This document shows, piece after piece, positions 37,363 to 43,584 of a stretch of 48,625 nt of DNA (its first letter is position 1; each line of letters begins with the position of its first letter). The stretch comes from Chloroflexota bacterium. Its GTDB lineage: Bacteria; Chloroflexota; Anaerolineae; JAAYEA01. The position numbers and the translations under genes are program-made. The stretch is taken from positions 1-48,625 of the forward strand of contig JAAYEA010000433.1 in the NCBI GenBank assembly GCA_012689325.1, given 5' to 3'. Under the pieces are notes generated by a model, which made no database searches, had not been told where the DNA came from, and saw nothing but the letters and a program-made list of their open reading frames with translations.

Positions 37363-38454
37363 ATGAGAAGCGACTATCGGGTCACGCAGATATCGGCGGG
37401 GAACAAGCCTGCGATCCACAACCACTATGACATCTGTCCGGAGAGCCCCGATGGCCAGCAGGTGATCTATTTCTCGTTCCTGGGCGCGCCGCCGAGCCCT
37501 GGCGTGGTCACCATCGTGAACCGGGACGGGCAGCGCGAGCGGCGCGTGGGGCTCACCACCTACGGCAGCGTCGAGCGCGGCGCCAACCAGCAGTGGGTGG
37601 ACCAGGGGCACGTTGCCTACCACACCCAGTCCGAGGCCGGCCCCGTGACCATCGTCGTGTCGCTGCAAGATGGCAAGCGCCTGCAGATGCCGGGCAACCT
37701 CCGCATGTTCGCCCCCGCCCACGCCAAGGGGCTGTATGCCTCCCCGGCGGCGAGGCATTTGGGCGGCTGCTGCCAGCTCGAGGCGGTCTATGTCACCGAT
37801 TTCGACGCCCGAGACACTTGCCCGGTGCTGGTGCGCGAGGAGGTGGTGGCCAGCCATCCGCTCGCCTCCCAGTTCCCAACCGACGCGCCTCCTGCCTTCA
37901 CGCAGGTCAAGTGGTCGCCCGATGGCTCGAGGTTGCTCGCCGTCTTGAGCAACGCCAACTATGCCGCCCAGCATCCCACGGCGCGGCGGATTCACTCGCT
38001 TTTCGTCGCCAAGGCGGACGGGACCGAGCTTCGCTACCTGGGCGAGTTCGGGCGGCAACCGATGTGGTCGCCGGACGGCTCTTTCGTTCACACGCTGGAC
38101 GCCCACCCAAGCGGCCAGGAGGCCCTCGTCGCCCATCCGATCGATGGAGGCGAGGCGAGGATCCTGTTTGCCCAGGTCCCAGGGCTGCACCCCAGCCTGC
38201 ACCCGGACGGCCAGCGAGTCCTCACTGATGTGACAGACTGGCCCACGGCGGGACAGGCGGCGGTCGTGCTGTACGAGCCGAACGGGATCGACTTTGCCGT
38301 GCTGGCAGCCTGGGCGACGGCCTCGGGCGGCGCGCAGCCGCGCTACCACGCCCATCCGGCTTGGTCCCGCGACGGTCGGCGCGTCTACCTGAACGCCGTC
38401 GAAGGAGACGTGGTGCGCCTGTTTGCCGTCGACGCCGGCGAACGCGGCTTCTGA
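37363..38454 (+). CDS. WD40/TolB-like beta-propeller protein (oligogalacturonate-lyase-like)
   Basis: A 363-residue cytoplasmic beta-propeller. Repeated blades carry S/H-PDG turns: ICPESPDGQQVIYFSF, VKWSPDGSRLLAVL, PMWSPDGSFVHTL, LHPDGQRVLTD and HPAWSRDGRRVYLN. The His-rich openings (HNHYD near 20, HAHP near 330) recall the oligogalacturonate lyase family, where His binds a metal; this is suggestive only. No signal peptide, so an enzyme rather than a periplasmic TolB. ATG 37363 follows AAAGGAG. Lies 43 bases after the flavin-reductase gene. Confidence 0.75.
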   Translation: MRSDYRVTQISAGNKPAIHNHYDICPESPDGQQVIYFSFLGAPPSPGVVTIVNRDGQRERRVGLTTYGSVERGANQQWVDQGHVAYHTQSEAGPVTIVVSLQDGKRLQMPGNLRMFAPAHAKGLYASPAARHLGGCCQLEAVYVTDFDARDTCPVLVREEVVASHPLASQFPTDAPPAFTQVKWSPDGSRLLAVLSNANYAAQHPTARRIHSLFVAKADGTELRYLGEFGRQPMWSPDGSFVHTLDAHPSGQEALVAHPIDGGEARILFAQVPGLHPSLHPDGQRVLTDVTDWPTAGQAAVVLYEPNGIDFAVLAAWATASGGAQPRYHAHPAWSRDGRRVYLNAVEGDVVRLFAVDAGERGF

Positions 38455-38465
38455 TCGAGGTTGCC

Positions 38466-39614
38466 ATGAGTGAGAGGGTGACGCCGATCTCTGCCAGCCA
38501 GGCGCAATTGATCTGCTCAGCTTGCCGGGCCGCGTTCGCCCTCGAATCGCTCCGTTGGCGCTGCGACTGCGGCGGGCTGCTGGACATCGCGATCTCGCCG
38601 CGGCTGGACCTCGACACCCTGCGCCAGCGCCCGCCCACCCTCTGGCGCTACCGTGAGGCCATCCCGGTCCGCGATGAGCGCCATGTAGTGTCGCTGGGCG
38701 AAGGAGTGACCCCTCTTGCCAGCGTTGCTGTCGGCGGTCGGGAGCTGCTCGTCAAACAGGATCAGCTCTTTCCCAGCGGCTCGTACAAGGATCGCGGCGC
38801 CGCCGTCCTGGTGAGCGCGGTCCGGGCGGCCGGCGTCCGCCACGTCGTCGAGGACTCGTCCGGCAACGCGGGCGCGGCCATCGCCGCATATTGCGCCCGA
38901 GCGGGCATCGCCTGCGACATCTATGTGCCGGAGGGCACCTCCGCAGCCAAGCTGGCCCAGATCGAGCTCTCCGGCGCCAGGCTCGTCCGCGTGCCTGGGA
39001 ATCGGGAGGACACGGCGCGCGCCGTTTGGCAGGCCGCGCAAGGCGCCTATTACGCCAGCCACTCCTGGAACCCCTTTTTCTTGCACGGGACTAAGACCTG
39101 GGCCTACGAGGTCTGCGAGCAGCTTGGCTGGCGCGCTCCCGACGCTGTGGCCCTGCCCGTGGGCAACGGTACGCTACTGCTCGGCGCGGATATCGGATTC
39201 CGCGAGCTGGAGGAGATGGGCCTCATCCCGCGCGTGCCGCGGCTGATCGCCATCCAGGCCGCCAACTGCGCCCCGCTCTACCGCGCTTTCCGCGAGGGCC
39301 GCGACTCCGCCTCCGCGATCGAACGGAGCGAGACCGTCGCGGAGGGCATCGCCATCGCCGCCCCCGTTCGCGGGTCCCAGATCCTCTCCGCGGTGCGCCG
39401 CAGCGGCGGCGAGATCCTCGCCGTGGGAGAGGCCGAGATCGTTGACGAGCTGCGGGGGTTGCTGCGCCAAGGGTATTGCGTCGAGCCAACCGCCGCGGCG
39501 ACCATCGCCGGGGCCCGCGCCTACTTGCGCGCCGCGGCAGACCCCGGCCTCGTCGTCTCCACCCTGACCGGGCACGGGCTCAAAGCGATGGACAAGCTGT
39601 CGCACCTATTGTAA
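38466..39614 (+). CDS. Threonine synthase-like PLP enzyme
   Basis: A 382-residue fold-type II PLP enzyme. It has an N-terminal zinc-ribbon-like segment (C17, C20, C33, C35 in LICSACRAAF and WRCDCGG) as in class-II threonine synthases. The PLP lysine is K108 in PSGSYKDRGAA; EDSSGNAGAAIA is the phosphate/carboxylate block, and PVGNGTLLLGA the PLP-phosphate-binding Gly loop. Real threonine synthase converts O-phosphohomoserine to threonine, but its neighbours (ABC permease, DUF362) are not threonine genes, so a related beta-elimination or replacement is possible. ATG 38466 with GAGG upstream, 11 bases after the propeller gene. Confidence 0.85.
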   Translation: MSERVTPISASQAQLICSACRAAFALESLRWRCDCGGLLDIAISPRLDLDTLRQRPPTLWRYREAIPVRDERHVVSLGEGVTPLASVAVGGRELLVKQDQLFPSGSYKDRGAAVLVSAVRAAGVRHVVEDSSGNAGAAIAAYCARAGIACDIYVPEGTSAAKLAQIELSGARLVRVPGNREDTARAVWQAAQGAYYASHSWNPFFLHGTKTWAYEVCEQLGWRAPDAVALPVGNGTLLLGADIGFRELEEMGLIPRVPRLIAIQAANCAPLYRAFREGRDSASAIERSETVAEGIAIAAPVRGSQILSAVRRSGGEILAVGEAEIVDELRGLLRQGYCVEPTAAATIAGARAYLRAAADPGLVVSTLTGHGLKAMDKLSHLL

Positions 39615-39624
39615 GGGCCGATCC

Positions 39625-41787
39625 ATGAGCACGGTGAATGTCGTCAATGCGCCTTCGTGGAGGCGTCGGGCCTTGCGCATCGCCGCCGCCCTGGCGGTGG
39701 CTGCCCTGGCAGCCATCTTACGCCTGCGCGCCGTCGCCCTGCTGCCCATCGACTATGATGAGGATGACTATTTGCGGGGCGGGCTCGAGTATGCCGCCGC
39801 CATCCAGCGCGGCGATTGGGCCGCCTTGACCCAGCTCAACTATCGGCCTGAGCATCCCGCCCTGCACAAGCTGGCCTACGGGCTGGCCCTGGCTCCCTTC
39901 CCTCCGGCCACCGTGCCCGATCGCCCCACCACCGCCGCGCCCGCCCCTTCTCTCCCGCAGCCGCACCTTTACGTCGCCCGTCTGGTCTCGGCGTTTTTTG
40001 GCACGCTGCAGGTGCTGGTCCTGGCGCTCATCAGCCCGGTGGCAGGGCTCTTTCTCGCCATCAGCACCTGGGCCGTCAAGTATACCAGCCAGGCCATGCT
40101 CGAGGGGATCCCGTCCTTCACCAGCCTCTTGGTGGTCGCCTGCTACGCCAGGGGGCGCATCCGCGGCTGGCGCTGGCTTGCCCTCTCGGGAGCGGCGCTG
40201 GGCCTGACGGCGGCTTCCAAGTACCTCTACTGCGTGGCCGGCGCCGCGGTGGCGGTTCACTGGCTCGCCAGCACAGCGCCGCGCAGAGGCGCCAGGAGCA
40301 AGGTCGCCCTCTGGAGGTGGCTGCGGCCGGTGCTGCTCTGGGCGGTGCTGGCCGTGGCCGTCTTTGCCGCGGCAGACCCTTACCTTTGGCCGGATCCCGT
40401 GGGCAGGCTGAGGGACTCGGTCTTTTTCCACCCTTATTACACGCAGAGCCAGGCGGTGCAGTCCCTGAACATGCCCTTCTGGCAGACCCTCGCGCTGCTC
40501 TTTAGCTCGGTCCCCTGGCACCGCTCCGTGTTCCTGGTTGCCCTGGACCCGCTGGTCACCCTCCTGGCCGCCATCGGCCTGTTTGGCAGGAAAGAGCCTC
40601 GCCTGTGGGTCACCTGGCTGGTTGTCGCCGCCGCCTTTCTGCTCGTCTGGCCGACCAAGTGGCCGCAATACCTCCTCTGCCTGCTGGCTCCGGTCTGCTA
40701 TCTCGGCGCGGCAGCCCTGGCGCGCTGGGTCGCGATGCTCGAGCGGGCTTGGGCGGCCAGGGGCGACTGGCATTGGCGCCCAGCGTGGCCAAGCTCGGCC
40801 TCCTGGATAGGCTTGCGTCGAGCGCTTCCCTGGCTTATCCCGGGGCTCGCCGCGGCGGGGCTGCTCCTGATCTACCCGATGATCTACCAGTTCGCCATCT
40901 CGCTCACCGATCTGCAGGCGACCTCCATCCGCGACGGCGTTACCGGTGGAGTGTGGCGCGAGGTCTGGCTCGGCCTCACCGGCCAGGTCTCACCCGTGAC
41001 CCCGTCGGCTCTGGGCCATGGTCCCGCCACTCGCGTGCACTATGCCGGGCCCGGGCTCCTGGCCCAGGTGCTCCTCAGCATCGACGAGGTGCTCGCCTTC
41101 GAGATCGTGTGGACCGTCTTGGCTGTGGGTACACAGGCGGCGCTCGGATTGGGTGTGGCACTGCTCCTCAACCGCCGCGGCGTCAGGTTCACGGGCTGGT
41201 GGCGGACCCTCTACATCCTCCCTTGGGCCGTCCCCGAGTTCGTGGCGGCTCTCAGTTGGTCGCACATCCTGGAGCCCCGCTTCGGCTGGCTCAGGCTGGC
41301 CACCGCCCCCTGGGCGCAACAGGCCCCGGCGCTTGCCCGTGCCAGCGCCGGCTGGATGGCGCGAACGGATCAGGCGCTCCTCCTCTTGCTGATGGCGGCG
41401 CTTTGGTACGGCTTCCCCTTCATGTGCCTGGCGGCCAGCGCGGGGCTGCGCATGATCCCTCACGAGCTGCACGAGGCGGCCTGGATGGATGGCGCCGGGG
41501 CCTGGACGCGGTTTCGTTATGTCACCTGGCCCCTGCTCGCGCCGCTGCTGGTCCCTGCCCTCCTCATCCGCGCCATCGGCGCCTTCAACCAGTTCTACCT
41601 CTTTGTGGTGCTGCGCCCACCGCACCCCCTGGCCACGCTGGCCACGATCTCGTATACGCAGTTCGCCAGCAACAGGCAATATGCCGTCTCCGCGGCGATC
41701 AACACCGTCACCGTGGCGATCCTGCTGGGACTGGTGCTCTGGTTCGAACACAAGAGCAGGGCCAGCGAGGGACTGACCTATGCATAG
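39625..41787 (+). CDS. Fusion: GT39-type membrane glycosyltransferase + MalF-type ABC permease
   Basis: A single uninterrupted 720-residue frame with two unrelated membrane modules. Residues 1 to about 385 resemble dolichol-P-mannose-type (PMT/ArnT, GT39) glycosyltransferases: the acidic first-loop motif PIDYDEDDYLRGG near 42, then YRPEHPALHKLAYG and many hydrophobic helices. From about 398 it becomes a sugar ABC permease: ALPWLIPGLAAAGLLLIYPMIY is the MalF-type first helix and EAAWMDGAGAWTRFRYVTWPLL (near 616) is the EAA loop that contacts the ATPase. The ATG at 39625 is ten bases after the threonine-synthase-like stop. The MalG-type gene overlaps by eight bases. No frameshift is visible at the junction. 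Whether the transferase supplies or modifies the transported sugar is unknown. Confidence 0.85.
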   Translation: MSTVNVVNAPSWRRRALRIAAALAVAALAAILRLRAVALLPIDYDEDDYLRGGLEYAAAIQRGDWAALTQLNYRPEHPALHKLAYGLALAPFPPATVPDRPTTAAPAPSLPQPHLYVARLVSAFFGTLQVLVLALISPVAGLFLAISTWAVKYTSQAMLEGIPSFTSLLVVACYARGRIRGWRWLALSGAALGLTAASKYLYCVAGAAVAVHWLASTAPRRGARSKVALWRWLRPVLLWAVLAVAVFAAADPYLWPDPVGRLRDSVFFHPYYTQSQAVQSLNMPFWQTLALLFSSVPWHRSVFLVALDPLVTLLAAIGLFGRKEPRLWVTWLVVAAAFLLVWPTKWPQYLLCLLAPVCYLGAAALARWVAMLERAWAARGDWHWRPAWPSSASWIGLRRALPWLIPGLAAAGLLLIYPMIYQFAISLTDLQATSIRDGVTGGVWREVWLGLTGQVSPVTPSALGHGPATRVHYAGPGLLAQVLLSIDEVLAFEIVWTVLAVGTQAALGLGVALLLNRRGVRFTGWWRTLYILPWAVPEFVAALSWSHILEPRFGWLRLATAPWAQQAPALARASAGWMARTDQALLLLLMAALWYGFPFMCLAASAGLRMIPHELHEAAWMDGAGAWTRFRYVTWPLLAPLLVPALLIRAIGAFNQFYLFVVLRPPHPLATLATISYTQFASNRQYAVSAAINTVTVAILLGLVLWFEHKSRASEGLTYA

Positions 41788-42622
41788 GCTCAGCGCCTCC
41801 CGCCAGGCTCTTTGCCAGGCCGCGTTGTTGCTCGTCGGTATCTTTGTGCTCCTTCCGCTGTGGAGTTTGAGCCGCCTGGCGCTGGATGGGGCTATCAAGA
41901 GCGTCCCCACCGCCTTTATGCTCTGGCCGCAACAGCCCACCCTGGGAGTGTTCGGGCAGGTGTGGCAGCGCGCCTCGCAGTCCCTCTCGTTCCTCGGCTT
42001 GCTAGCCAACAGCCTCTGGGTATCTTGCCTGGCCGCCGGCCTATCGGTGGTGATGGGCGCCAGCACCGCCTATGCTTTCGCCCGCCTGCGTTTTGCGGGC
42101 CGGCGAGTCGGGCTGCTGAGCCTGTTGGTGGGGGCGTTTCTTCCGCCTGTGGCGCTGATGACGCCCCTTTACCTTATCTTGGAGAGCCTTCATCTGCGCG
42201 ACTCGACCTTCGGGCTGGTGCTGGTCTACGCGGCCTTTTCGCTGCCCTTCTGCATCTGGAACATGCGCGCGGCCTTTCAGGCGGCGCCTCGCGAGCTGGA
42301 GGAGGCGGCGGCGCTGGATGGGGCGACTCCCTTGGGTTGTTTTTTGCGGGTGGCGCTGCCGTTGGCCCTGCCGGCCATCGGCACGGCGGCGCTGGTGGCG
42401 TTCCTGGGCGCCTATTCCGAGTTCGCCGTGGGCTGGCTCTTTGTGGAGAACGGCCGGGACGTGACCCTGGCCATGGCGATCTGGGGCATGCGCACCATGG
42501 GCGGTGTGCCCTGGAGCCAAATTGCCGCGATGGCGATCCTGATGACGCTGCCGGTGACGGCCGTCTTCCTCGTGCTACGCAAGGCGCTCTTCGACCGAAT
42601 GGCTTTCGGGTCCCCCGAGTAG
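41780..42622 (+). CDS. MalG-type carbohydrate ABC transporter permease
   Basis: A 280-residue permease with six hydrophobic helices. The EAA loop is EEAAALDGATPLGCFLRVALPLALP, and GAFLPPVALMTPLYLILESLHLRDS is the usual helix preceding it. The ATG lies within the end of the fusion gene (8-base overlap), so the two subunits are made together and should form a heterodimeric channel. Neither a solute-binding protein nor an ATPase gene is in the window; the ATPase may be shared from elsewhere. Confidence 0.92.
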   Translation: MHRLSASRQALCQAALLLVGIFVLLPLWSLSRLALDGAIKSVPTAFMLWPQQPTLGVFGQVWQRASQSLSFLGLLANSLWVSCLAAGLSVVMGASTAYAFARLRFAGRRVGLLSLLVGAFLPPVALMTPLYLILESLHLRDSTFGLVLVYAAFSLPFCIWNMRAAFQAAPRELEEAAALDGATPLGCFLRVALPLALPAIGTAALVAFLGAYSEFAVGWLFVENGRDVTLAMAIWGMRTMGGVPWSQIAAMAILMTLPVTAVFLVLRKALFDRMAFGSPE

Positions 42623-42720: not shown

Positions 42721-43584
42721 ATGAAAATCCAGCGTCTGCCCGCGAACCCCATCATCGGCCCCCACATGGACGAGCGCATGGGCGAGAACATCAATGGCCC
42801 CTCGCTGATCCGCGTGCCCGGCTGGGTCCCGAACCCACTGGGCCGCTACTACCTCTATTTCGCCCACCATCAGGGCGCCTATATCCGCTTGGCCTACGCT
42901 GACCGCCTGGAGGGCCCCTGGCGCATCCACACGCCCGGGGTGCTGGACCTCGGCGACTCGTTCTTTGACCGCCACATCGCCTCGCCTGATGTCCACCTGG
43001 TGCCGGAGCGCCGCGAGATCTGGATGTACTATCACGGTTGCTGTCGTCCGGTGGAGCCGCGGCAGGCCACCCGGCTGGCCATTTCCGGCGATGGGCTGAC
43101 CTTTGCCGCCCGAGAGGAGGTCTTGGGCGGGCCCTACTGGCGTGTTTTTCACTGGGGAGGGTGGCATTACGCGCTGGCGGGGGCCGGCTTGACTTACCGC
43201 TCCCGCGATGGAATCTCGGGCTGGGAGCAAGGGCCCAATCTCTTCACGGAGGACCTGCGGCACCTAGCGGTGCGCCTGCGAGGAGACGACTTGGAGGTGT
43301 TCTTCACCTATGCCTGGGACTGCCCGGAGCGCATCCTGCACGCCACGATCCACCTGACGCAGGACTGGGCTTCCTGGCAGCCCAGCGAGCCCGTGACCGT
43401 GCTGGAGCCCGAGCAGGACTGGGAAGGGGGAAACCTGGAGCTTGTCGCCTCGCGCCGAGGCGCCATTCACGAGCCAGCGCGGCAGCTCCGCGATCCCGCC
43501 ATCCATGAGGAGGATGGGCACGCCTACCTGCTCTACTCCGTGGCCGGGGAGCACGGCATCGCCATCGCCGAGATCAGCGAATAG
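42721..43584 (+). CDS. GH43-like five-bladed beta-propeller glycosidase
   Basis: A 287-residue cytoplasmic protein of the GH43/GH32/GH130-like propeller group. Blades carry typical turns: GRYYLYFAHHQGAYIRLAYAD, DSFFDRHIASPDVHLVPERREIWMYYHG, ATRLAISGDGLTF and the final RDPAIHEEDGHAYLLYSVAGEHG. An Asp in IASPDVHL fits one catalytic acid position. No signal peptide. Substrate not deducible; an arabinoside, xyloside or galactoside is typical. ATG 42721 follows GAGGAGG. It may be an intracellular partner for sugars brought in by the adjacent permeases. Confidence 0.82.
   Translation: MKIQRLPANPIIGPHMDERMGENINGPSLIRVPGWVPNPLGRYYLYFAHHQGAYIRLAYADRLEGPWRIHTPGVLDLGDSFFDRHIASPDVHLVPERREIWMYYHGCCRPVEPRQATRLAISGDGLTFAAREEVLGGPYWRVFHWGGWHYALAGAGLTYRSRDGISGWEQGPNLFTEDLRHLAVRLRGDDLEVFFTYAWDCPERILHATIHLTQDWASWQPSEPVTVLEPEQDWEGGNLELVASRRGAIHEPARQLRDPAIHEEDGHAYLLYSVAGEHGIAIAEISE

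Follow-up and report, generated by a model that had tools for sequence, protein, structure and literature searches.

Glycosyltransferases with lipid-linked sugar substrates are usually treated as one system, on the export side of the cell, and ATP-driven sugar importers as another, on the import side. The stretch of DNA analysed here, a contig of 48,625 nucleotides from a Chloroflexota bacterium which is referred to as the window, contains a gene in which one member of each appears to be joined in a single chain. This raises the questions of whether the join is real, and of what a glycosyltransferase would do at the mouth of a transporter, or a transporter at the foot of a glycosyltransferase. 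A sequence-only reading of the locus had described a GT39-type enzyme fused in frame to a sugar ABC permease and paired with a MalG-type partner, and had proposed coupled glycosylation and transport, or an exporter or importer handing its substrate to the enzyme.

As a description of the gene, this reading was confirmed throughout: the frame of 720 residues is uninterrupted, both modules are present, and the partner overlaps it by 8 bases (Table 1). In the C-terminal half, residues 507-702 match the Pfam family BPD_transp_1 (E 5.7e-17, 62.5 bits against a cut-off of 26.4), the nearest named family is MalF (NCBIfam, E 1.1e-22), and the MalF chain 2r6g_F of the PDB is matched with an E-value of 4.7e-38. 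The EAA loop follows the pattern EAAxxDGA, and its residues A618, A619, D622, G623 and P636 are kept in 95-100% of the listed relatives and are also present in canonical MalF. The N-terminal 370 residues of the window's own protein have no Pfam match, no curated NCBIfam glycosyltransferase model containing this core was found, and a single-sequence PDB search with a solo copy of the enzyme returned nothing useful. The PMT/ArnT-like assignment comes from the family and from structure prediction. PMT_2 is matched by 13 of 33 aligned relatives (best 1.7e-6) and PMT by three of them (best 4.2e-5), while yeast Pmt4 is the sole PDB match of the family profile (E 5e-5). An AlphaFold model based on 54 aligned homologues (pLDDT 90.2, pTM 0.88) led, in Foldseek searches, to Pmt4 and ArnT for the N-terminal half, where a GT-C multi-transmembrane fold with an extracytoplasmic first loop is seen, and to MalF and SugA for the C-terminal half, in which the transmembrane core of the permease is complete. 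With the predicted order of helices, the DYDEDDY loop lies outside the cell and the EAA loop in the cytoplasm, matching the requirement of both families. A Reg_prop-like look of the DGxxGGxW segment of the fusion was considered and dropped, as the model makes this segment helical.

Table 1. Features of the fusion locus and related proteins; coordinates refer to the window unless a locus label precedes them.
Feature	Coordinates	Strand	Evidence or remark
PALP (threonine synthase-like) gene, 10 nt before the fusion	38361..39614	+	context; not common to relatives' loci
GT39-like / MalF fusion gene, 720 aa, ATG to stop open throughout	39625..41787	+	single frame; AlphaFold
GT-C (GT39, PMT/ArnT-like) domain, residues ~10-370	39652..40734	+	family profile to Pmt4; PMT_2 in 13/33 members; Foldseek Pmt4 and ArnT
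DYDEDDY acidic first extracytoplasmic loop, residues 43-49	39751..39771	+	D43, D45, E46, Y49 common to fusion, solo and propeller forms
EHPxLxK motif, residues 76-82	39850..39870	+	H77, P78, K82 common to three architectures
KYTSQxMLE motif, residues 152-160	40078..40104	+	K152, L159, E160 conserved across architectures
WPTKWPQY motif, residues 342-349, closing the GT domain	40648..40671	+	
End of long last GT helix and cytoplasmic inter-module linker, residues 371-391	40735..40797	+	AlphaFold: lowest confidence at 382-389
MalF-type (CUT1) permease domain, residues 392-720	40798..41784	+	Pfam, NCBIfam, PDB match, Foldseek
EAA loop of the MalF half (EAAWMDGAGAWTRFRYVTWP), predicted NBD coupling site	41473..41532	+	
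MalG-type partner (MalG2), 280 aa, 8-nt overlap with the fusion gene	41780..42622	+	
EAA loop of MalG2 (EAAALDGATPLGCFLRVALP)	42302..42361	+	
MalG2 C-terminus (RMAFGSPE), without canonical GGVKG tail	42590..42622	+	
Weak GH43-like gene, 287 aa, downstream	42721..43584	+	Pfam E 0.014, below cut-off
GT-C + TM + Reg_prop beta-propeller proteins	L128:9902-12013, L129:7321-9456, L134:9253-11370, L130:9295-11466		behind SBP-MalF-MalG

A scan of 84,980 species genomes yielded 79 loci, all in Chloroflexota and drawn from the best 80 of 140 confirmed stretches. In at least 65 relatives from other Chloroflexota assemblies the fusion is present as one frame of 640-823 residues, 37-54% identical to that of the window along both halves. 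These relatives show the fusion to be genuine and no assembly error, and rule out a missed stop or frameshift. By BLAST labels, a frame with both modules occurs in 75 of the 79 listed loci, some of them ending at contig ends, so that the architecture is overwhelmingly fused. The near-exceptions are two overlapping frames at the linker in L084, possibly a true split, a break inside the GT part in L014, a broken copy in L087 and a truncated one in L086; some relatives carry the GT only. Of 400 evenly sampled Chloroflexota genomes, 28 contain the GT core (E <= 1e-30), and about 11 of these are MalF fusions as judged from frame length and motifs. The fusion is kept across much of Chloroflexota and is a new architecture assembled from known families.

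The partner gene, for which MalG is the nearest named family (NCBIfam), travels with the fusion. Among the matches listed, 69 of 75 fusion loci have kept it, the 8-nt overlap is exact in 42 of 58 relatives, and an EAA loop is found by pattern in 59 of 68 MalG2 proteins. The C-terminal G-G-V-K-G tail, present in 38/38 canonical MalG proteins, occurs in 0/68 MalG2, again among the matches listed. In E. coli the MalG tail reaches into MalK, and the missing tail means that the pair may be coupled to its ATPase differently from MalFGK2; a search of the accessible literature found no paper on the MalG tail. The permease half of the fusion is likewise distinct. A tree separates its 28 rows, as a group with support 98, from 39 canonical Chloroflexota MalF proteins; it does not fall with the canonical MalF of its neighbourhood as an orthologue from MalFGK2 would, and its origin as a simple, recent duplicate of the neighbouring MalFG is rejected. 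Several of its positions are switched with respect to canonical MalF, such as W526 and, in the channel segment, R649 and Q656.

The surroundings of the pair follow two recurrent patterns. In 36 of the 79 listed loci (type A) it lies in or beside a maltodextrin cluster, usually in the order ROK-SBP-MalF-MalG-secreted GH13-[GT-MalF2]-MalG2-GH13, with a MalK-type ATPase in some; among these 36, an SBP gene is present in 30, MalF in 29, MalG in 30 and a secreted GH13 in 26. In 26 of the 79 (type B), about a third, it has moved to a housekeeping locus, where prfA and prmC flank it and the vicinity holds no sugar gene. Four genomes (G027, G149, G327 and G362) possess the GT core elsewhere, together with a cluster in type A order in which the secreted GH13 gene is followed directly by the cytoplasmic one, and in G027 the pair was directly observed at prfA/prmC; since the same maltodextrin cluster exists without the pair, the two genes behave as one inserted or removed unit. 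Standalone GT paralogues directly precede the fusion at some prfA-prmC loci (L029:7881-9053, also L040, L046, L060 and L073); these paralogues make up a separate clade, and their loop is altered (DADEGIY in L029).

The window locus is neither type A nor type B and is without SBP, ATPase or amylase. The earlier statement that no ATPase or binding protein is adjacent holds for this window only, as many relatives possess both. On a different contig (C499), the window's genome encodes a canonical SBP-MalF-MalG-MalK set, and an OB_MalK-type ATPase was found in 5/5 fusion genomes tested. The same genome also encodes a tandem permease, with two BPD_transp_1 domains in one frame of 670 residues (G000:C457:5128-6414). 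The GH43-like gene begins 99 nt past MalG2 and is possibly a five-bladed glycosidase. Binding proteins adjoin the fusion itself in L010, with the order SBP-fusion-MalG2-SBP and no canonical MalF between, and in L017, where a double binding protein lies directly upstream. Tandem binding proteins are of two kinds: two SBP_bac_8 domains in one chain (L011:1498-3888), and Peripla_BP_4 (ribose-type) joined to SBP_bac_8 (maltose-type) directly upstream of the GT gene (L017:5597-7909 and L081:489-2864).

The GT core occurs in three forms: fused to MalF; solo, with ~370-400 residues, as in a genome of the window's own family (G001), where it is 51% identical; and followed by one transmembrane helix and a Reg_prop propeller, with ~705 residues in all. 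All three keep the motifs of active-site type: besides the residues listed in Table 1, R119, K199 and D308 are conserved throughout, as is most of WPTKWPQY. In several genomes, of the Chloroflexus type and two others, the propeller form immediately follows SBP-MalF-MalG or GH13 genes. Its AlphaFold model, examined with Foldseek, has a helical half and a propeller resembling the sensor part of hybrid two-component systems from Bacteroides, with a pTM of only 0.52 that leaves the domain arrangement unsure. In a tree of the GT core, the fusion copies fall in one supported clade (97) with solo copies inside it and the propeller forms outside, a topology consistent with one fusion event followed by several losses or re-separations of the permease. 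Type A loci are spread over many parts of the fusion clade and type B loci sit in one subclade, mixed with type A, from which it follows that the association with maltodextrin genes probably predates the fusion.

The reading tentatively favoured here, which is given somewhat less than an even chance, is that of a second importer core of the CUT1 type, which serves the uptake of alpha-glucan and has an active glycosyltransferase built in on the extracytoplasmic side. Its MalF subunit would bear the GT-C enzyme at the N-terminus and MalG2 would be the second membrane subunit; the two would pair with each other, borrowing a MalK/MsmK-type ATPase and a binding protein from elsewhere in the genome, and would import an oligosaccharide that is probably derived from alpha-glucan. 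On the outer face, the active site of the enzyme would transfer a sugar from a polyprenyl-phosphate donor to an acceptor working at the transporter, and the fusion would hold the enzyme at the port of entry. Since the GT half most resembles protein O-mannosyltransferases, the likeliest acceptor would be found on the uptake system's surface lipoproteins (binding protein and amylase), in their Thr/Pro-rich tethers, the oligosaccharide itself being less likely. In SBP and GH13 lipoproteins, T, S and P make up 33% of the 35 residues after the lipobox compared with 18% of the rest, although such tethers are common in lipoproteins and are hence a weak pointer to the acceptor.

Sequence and model show a single chain, a GT-C fold with its acidic loop, a complete MalF fold, conserved EAA loops in both permeases, a conserved MalG partner and a recurrent linkage to maltodextrin genes, which extends to non-fused forms of the same GT core; all this would fit such a role. 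The strong and separate constraint on the two halves argues for two working activities, and the binding proteins adjacent to the fusion in L010 and L017 argue for real transport. Of the roles proposed by the sequence-only reading, coupled glycosylation and transport gains from the gene context, namely the SBP-MalF-MalG-GH13 clusters and the SBP directly upstream of the fusion in L010, which would fit it. An exporter is unlikely and not supported, both permease halves being type I importer (CUT1) subunits with EAA loops (NCBIfam and PDB matches). Against the importer reading stand the loss of the MalG2 tail, the 26 of 79 listed loci that are far from any sugar gene, the absence of SBP, ATPase and amylase from the window, and the GT-only relatives, which indicate that the enzyme can work without a permease.

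There is a rival, unlikely yet of some weight, in which the permease half and MalG2 no longer transport and are a structural platform anchoring the enzyme, for example beside a true MalFG, so that only the glycosyltransfer matters. The tail is gone from 68/68 MalG2 among the matches listed, there is no dedicated ATPase gene, solo enzymes inside the fusion clade show that the permease is dispensable while the enzyme stays, the propeller form has no permease domain, and L081 has kept the GT, next to SBP and GH13 genes, but not the permease. However, EAA loops serve NBD coupling only, and the permease residues, those of both loops included, are as strictly conserved as those of the enzyme; a mere anchor also sits poorly with the retention of MalG2 in nearly all listed fusion loci and with the binding proteins beside the fusion in L010 and L017.

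It is improbable that the ABC half instead serves the enzyme, flipping its lipid-linked donor outward or returning spent polyprenyl phosphate, which would make the glycosyltransferase self-supplying. GT39 enzymes do require a donor in the outer leaflet, the pair occurs without any sugar gene in the type B loci, and R649 and Q656 never vary among the fusions and are replaced by other residues in neighbouring MalF. However, an arginine at a similar place to R649 is also found in other CUT1 permeases, both subunits belong to CUT1 permeases for soluble, binding-protein-delivered sugars, a family in which we know of no lipid flippase, the model shows no large deviation from the MalF-type fold, and binding proteins adjoin some copies. 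An equally small chance is given to a closer coupling, in which the GT half would act at the entrance of its own ABC channel, using a lipid-linked sugar to modify the oligosaccharide on its way in, or a glycan that the binding protein carries, with uptake and transfer forming one cycle. An assembly or frameshift artefact that joined two genes has a next to negligible probability: the overlapping frames of L084 speak for it, and against it stand the single-frame fusions in independent assemblies, with linker position and downstream overlap conserved.

The fusion suggests a physical link between the attachment and the uptake of sugars in these bacteria. Its wide spread, together with the linkage of the same GT core to maltodextrin importers in Chloroflexus-type genomes through a different fusion, indicates that surface glycosylation and sugar uptake are functionally connected, which is directly testable, possibly in a cultivated organism. 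Targeted literature searches, with most subscription papers outside their reach, found neither a description of a GT39-ABC permease fusion nor an account of how widely it occurs or of one GT core being tied to maltodextrin import in several architectures.

Compared with known systems, the C-terminal half and MalG2 share with MalFGK2 and SugABC (E. coli MalF, 2r6g; M. smegmatis SugA, 7cad) the permease fold, the order of transmembrane helices and the EAA loops, with a TM-score of 0.84 between the fusion and SugA. Unlike MalF, the fusion has no large P2 domain, and its GT-C enzyme replaces the two extra N-terminal helices; it alone has the conserved periplasmic segment DGxxGG(I/V)WREVW, absent from the canonical MalF of its neighbourhood. 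In further contrast with the canonical systems, MalG2 is without the GGVKG tail and a dedicated SBP or ATPase gene is usually missing. The N-terminal half resembles Pmt4 and ArnT in its predicted topology and in the acidic DE loop after the first transmembrane helix, and has the HPxLxK motif as in PMTs, whereas it is short (~370 residues), has no MIR or C-terminal periplasmic domain, carries its own WPTKWPQY motif and is fused to a permease. The sister architecture is that of the Chloroflexia GT-C/Reg_prop propeller proteins (e.g. L128:9902-12010), which have the same GT core motifs and are also found directly behind SBP-MalF-MalG, but end in one transmembrane helix and a propeller like the sugar-sensor domains of hybrid two-component systems where the fusion ends in a permease.
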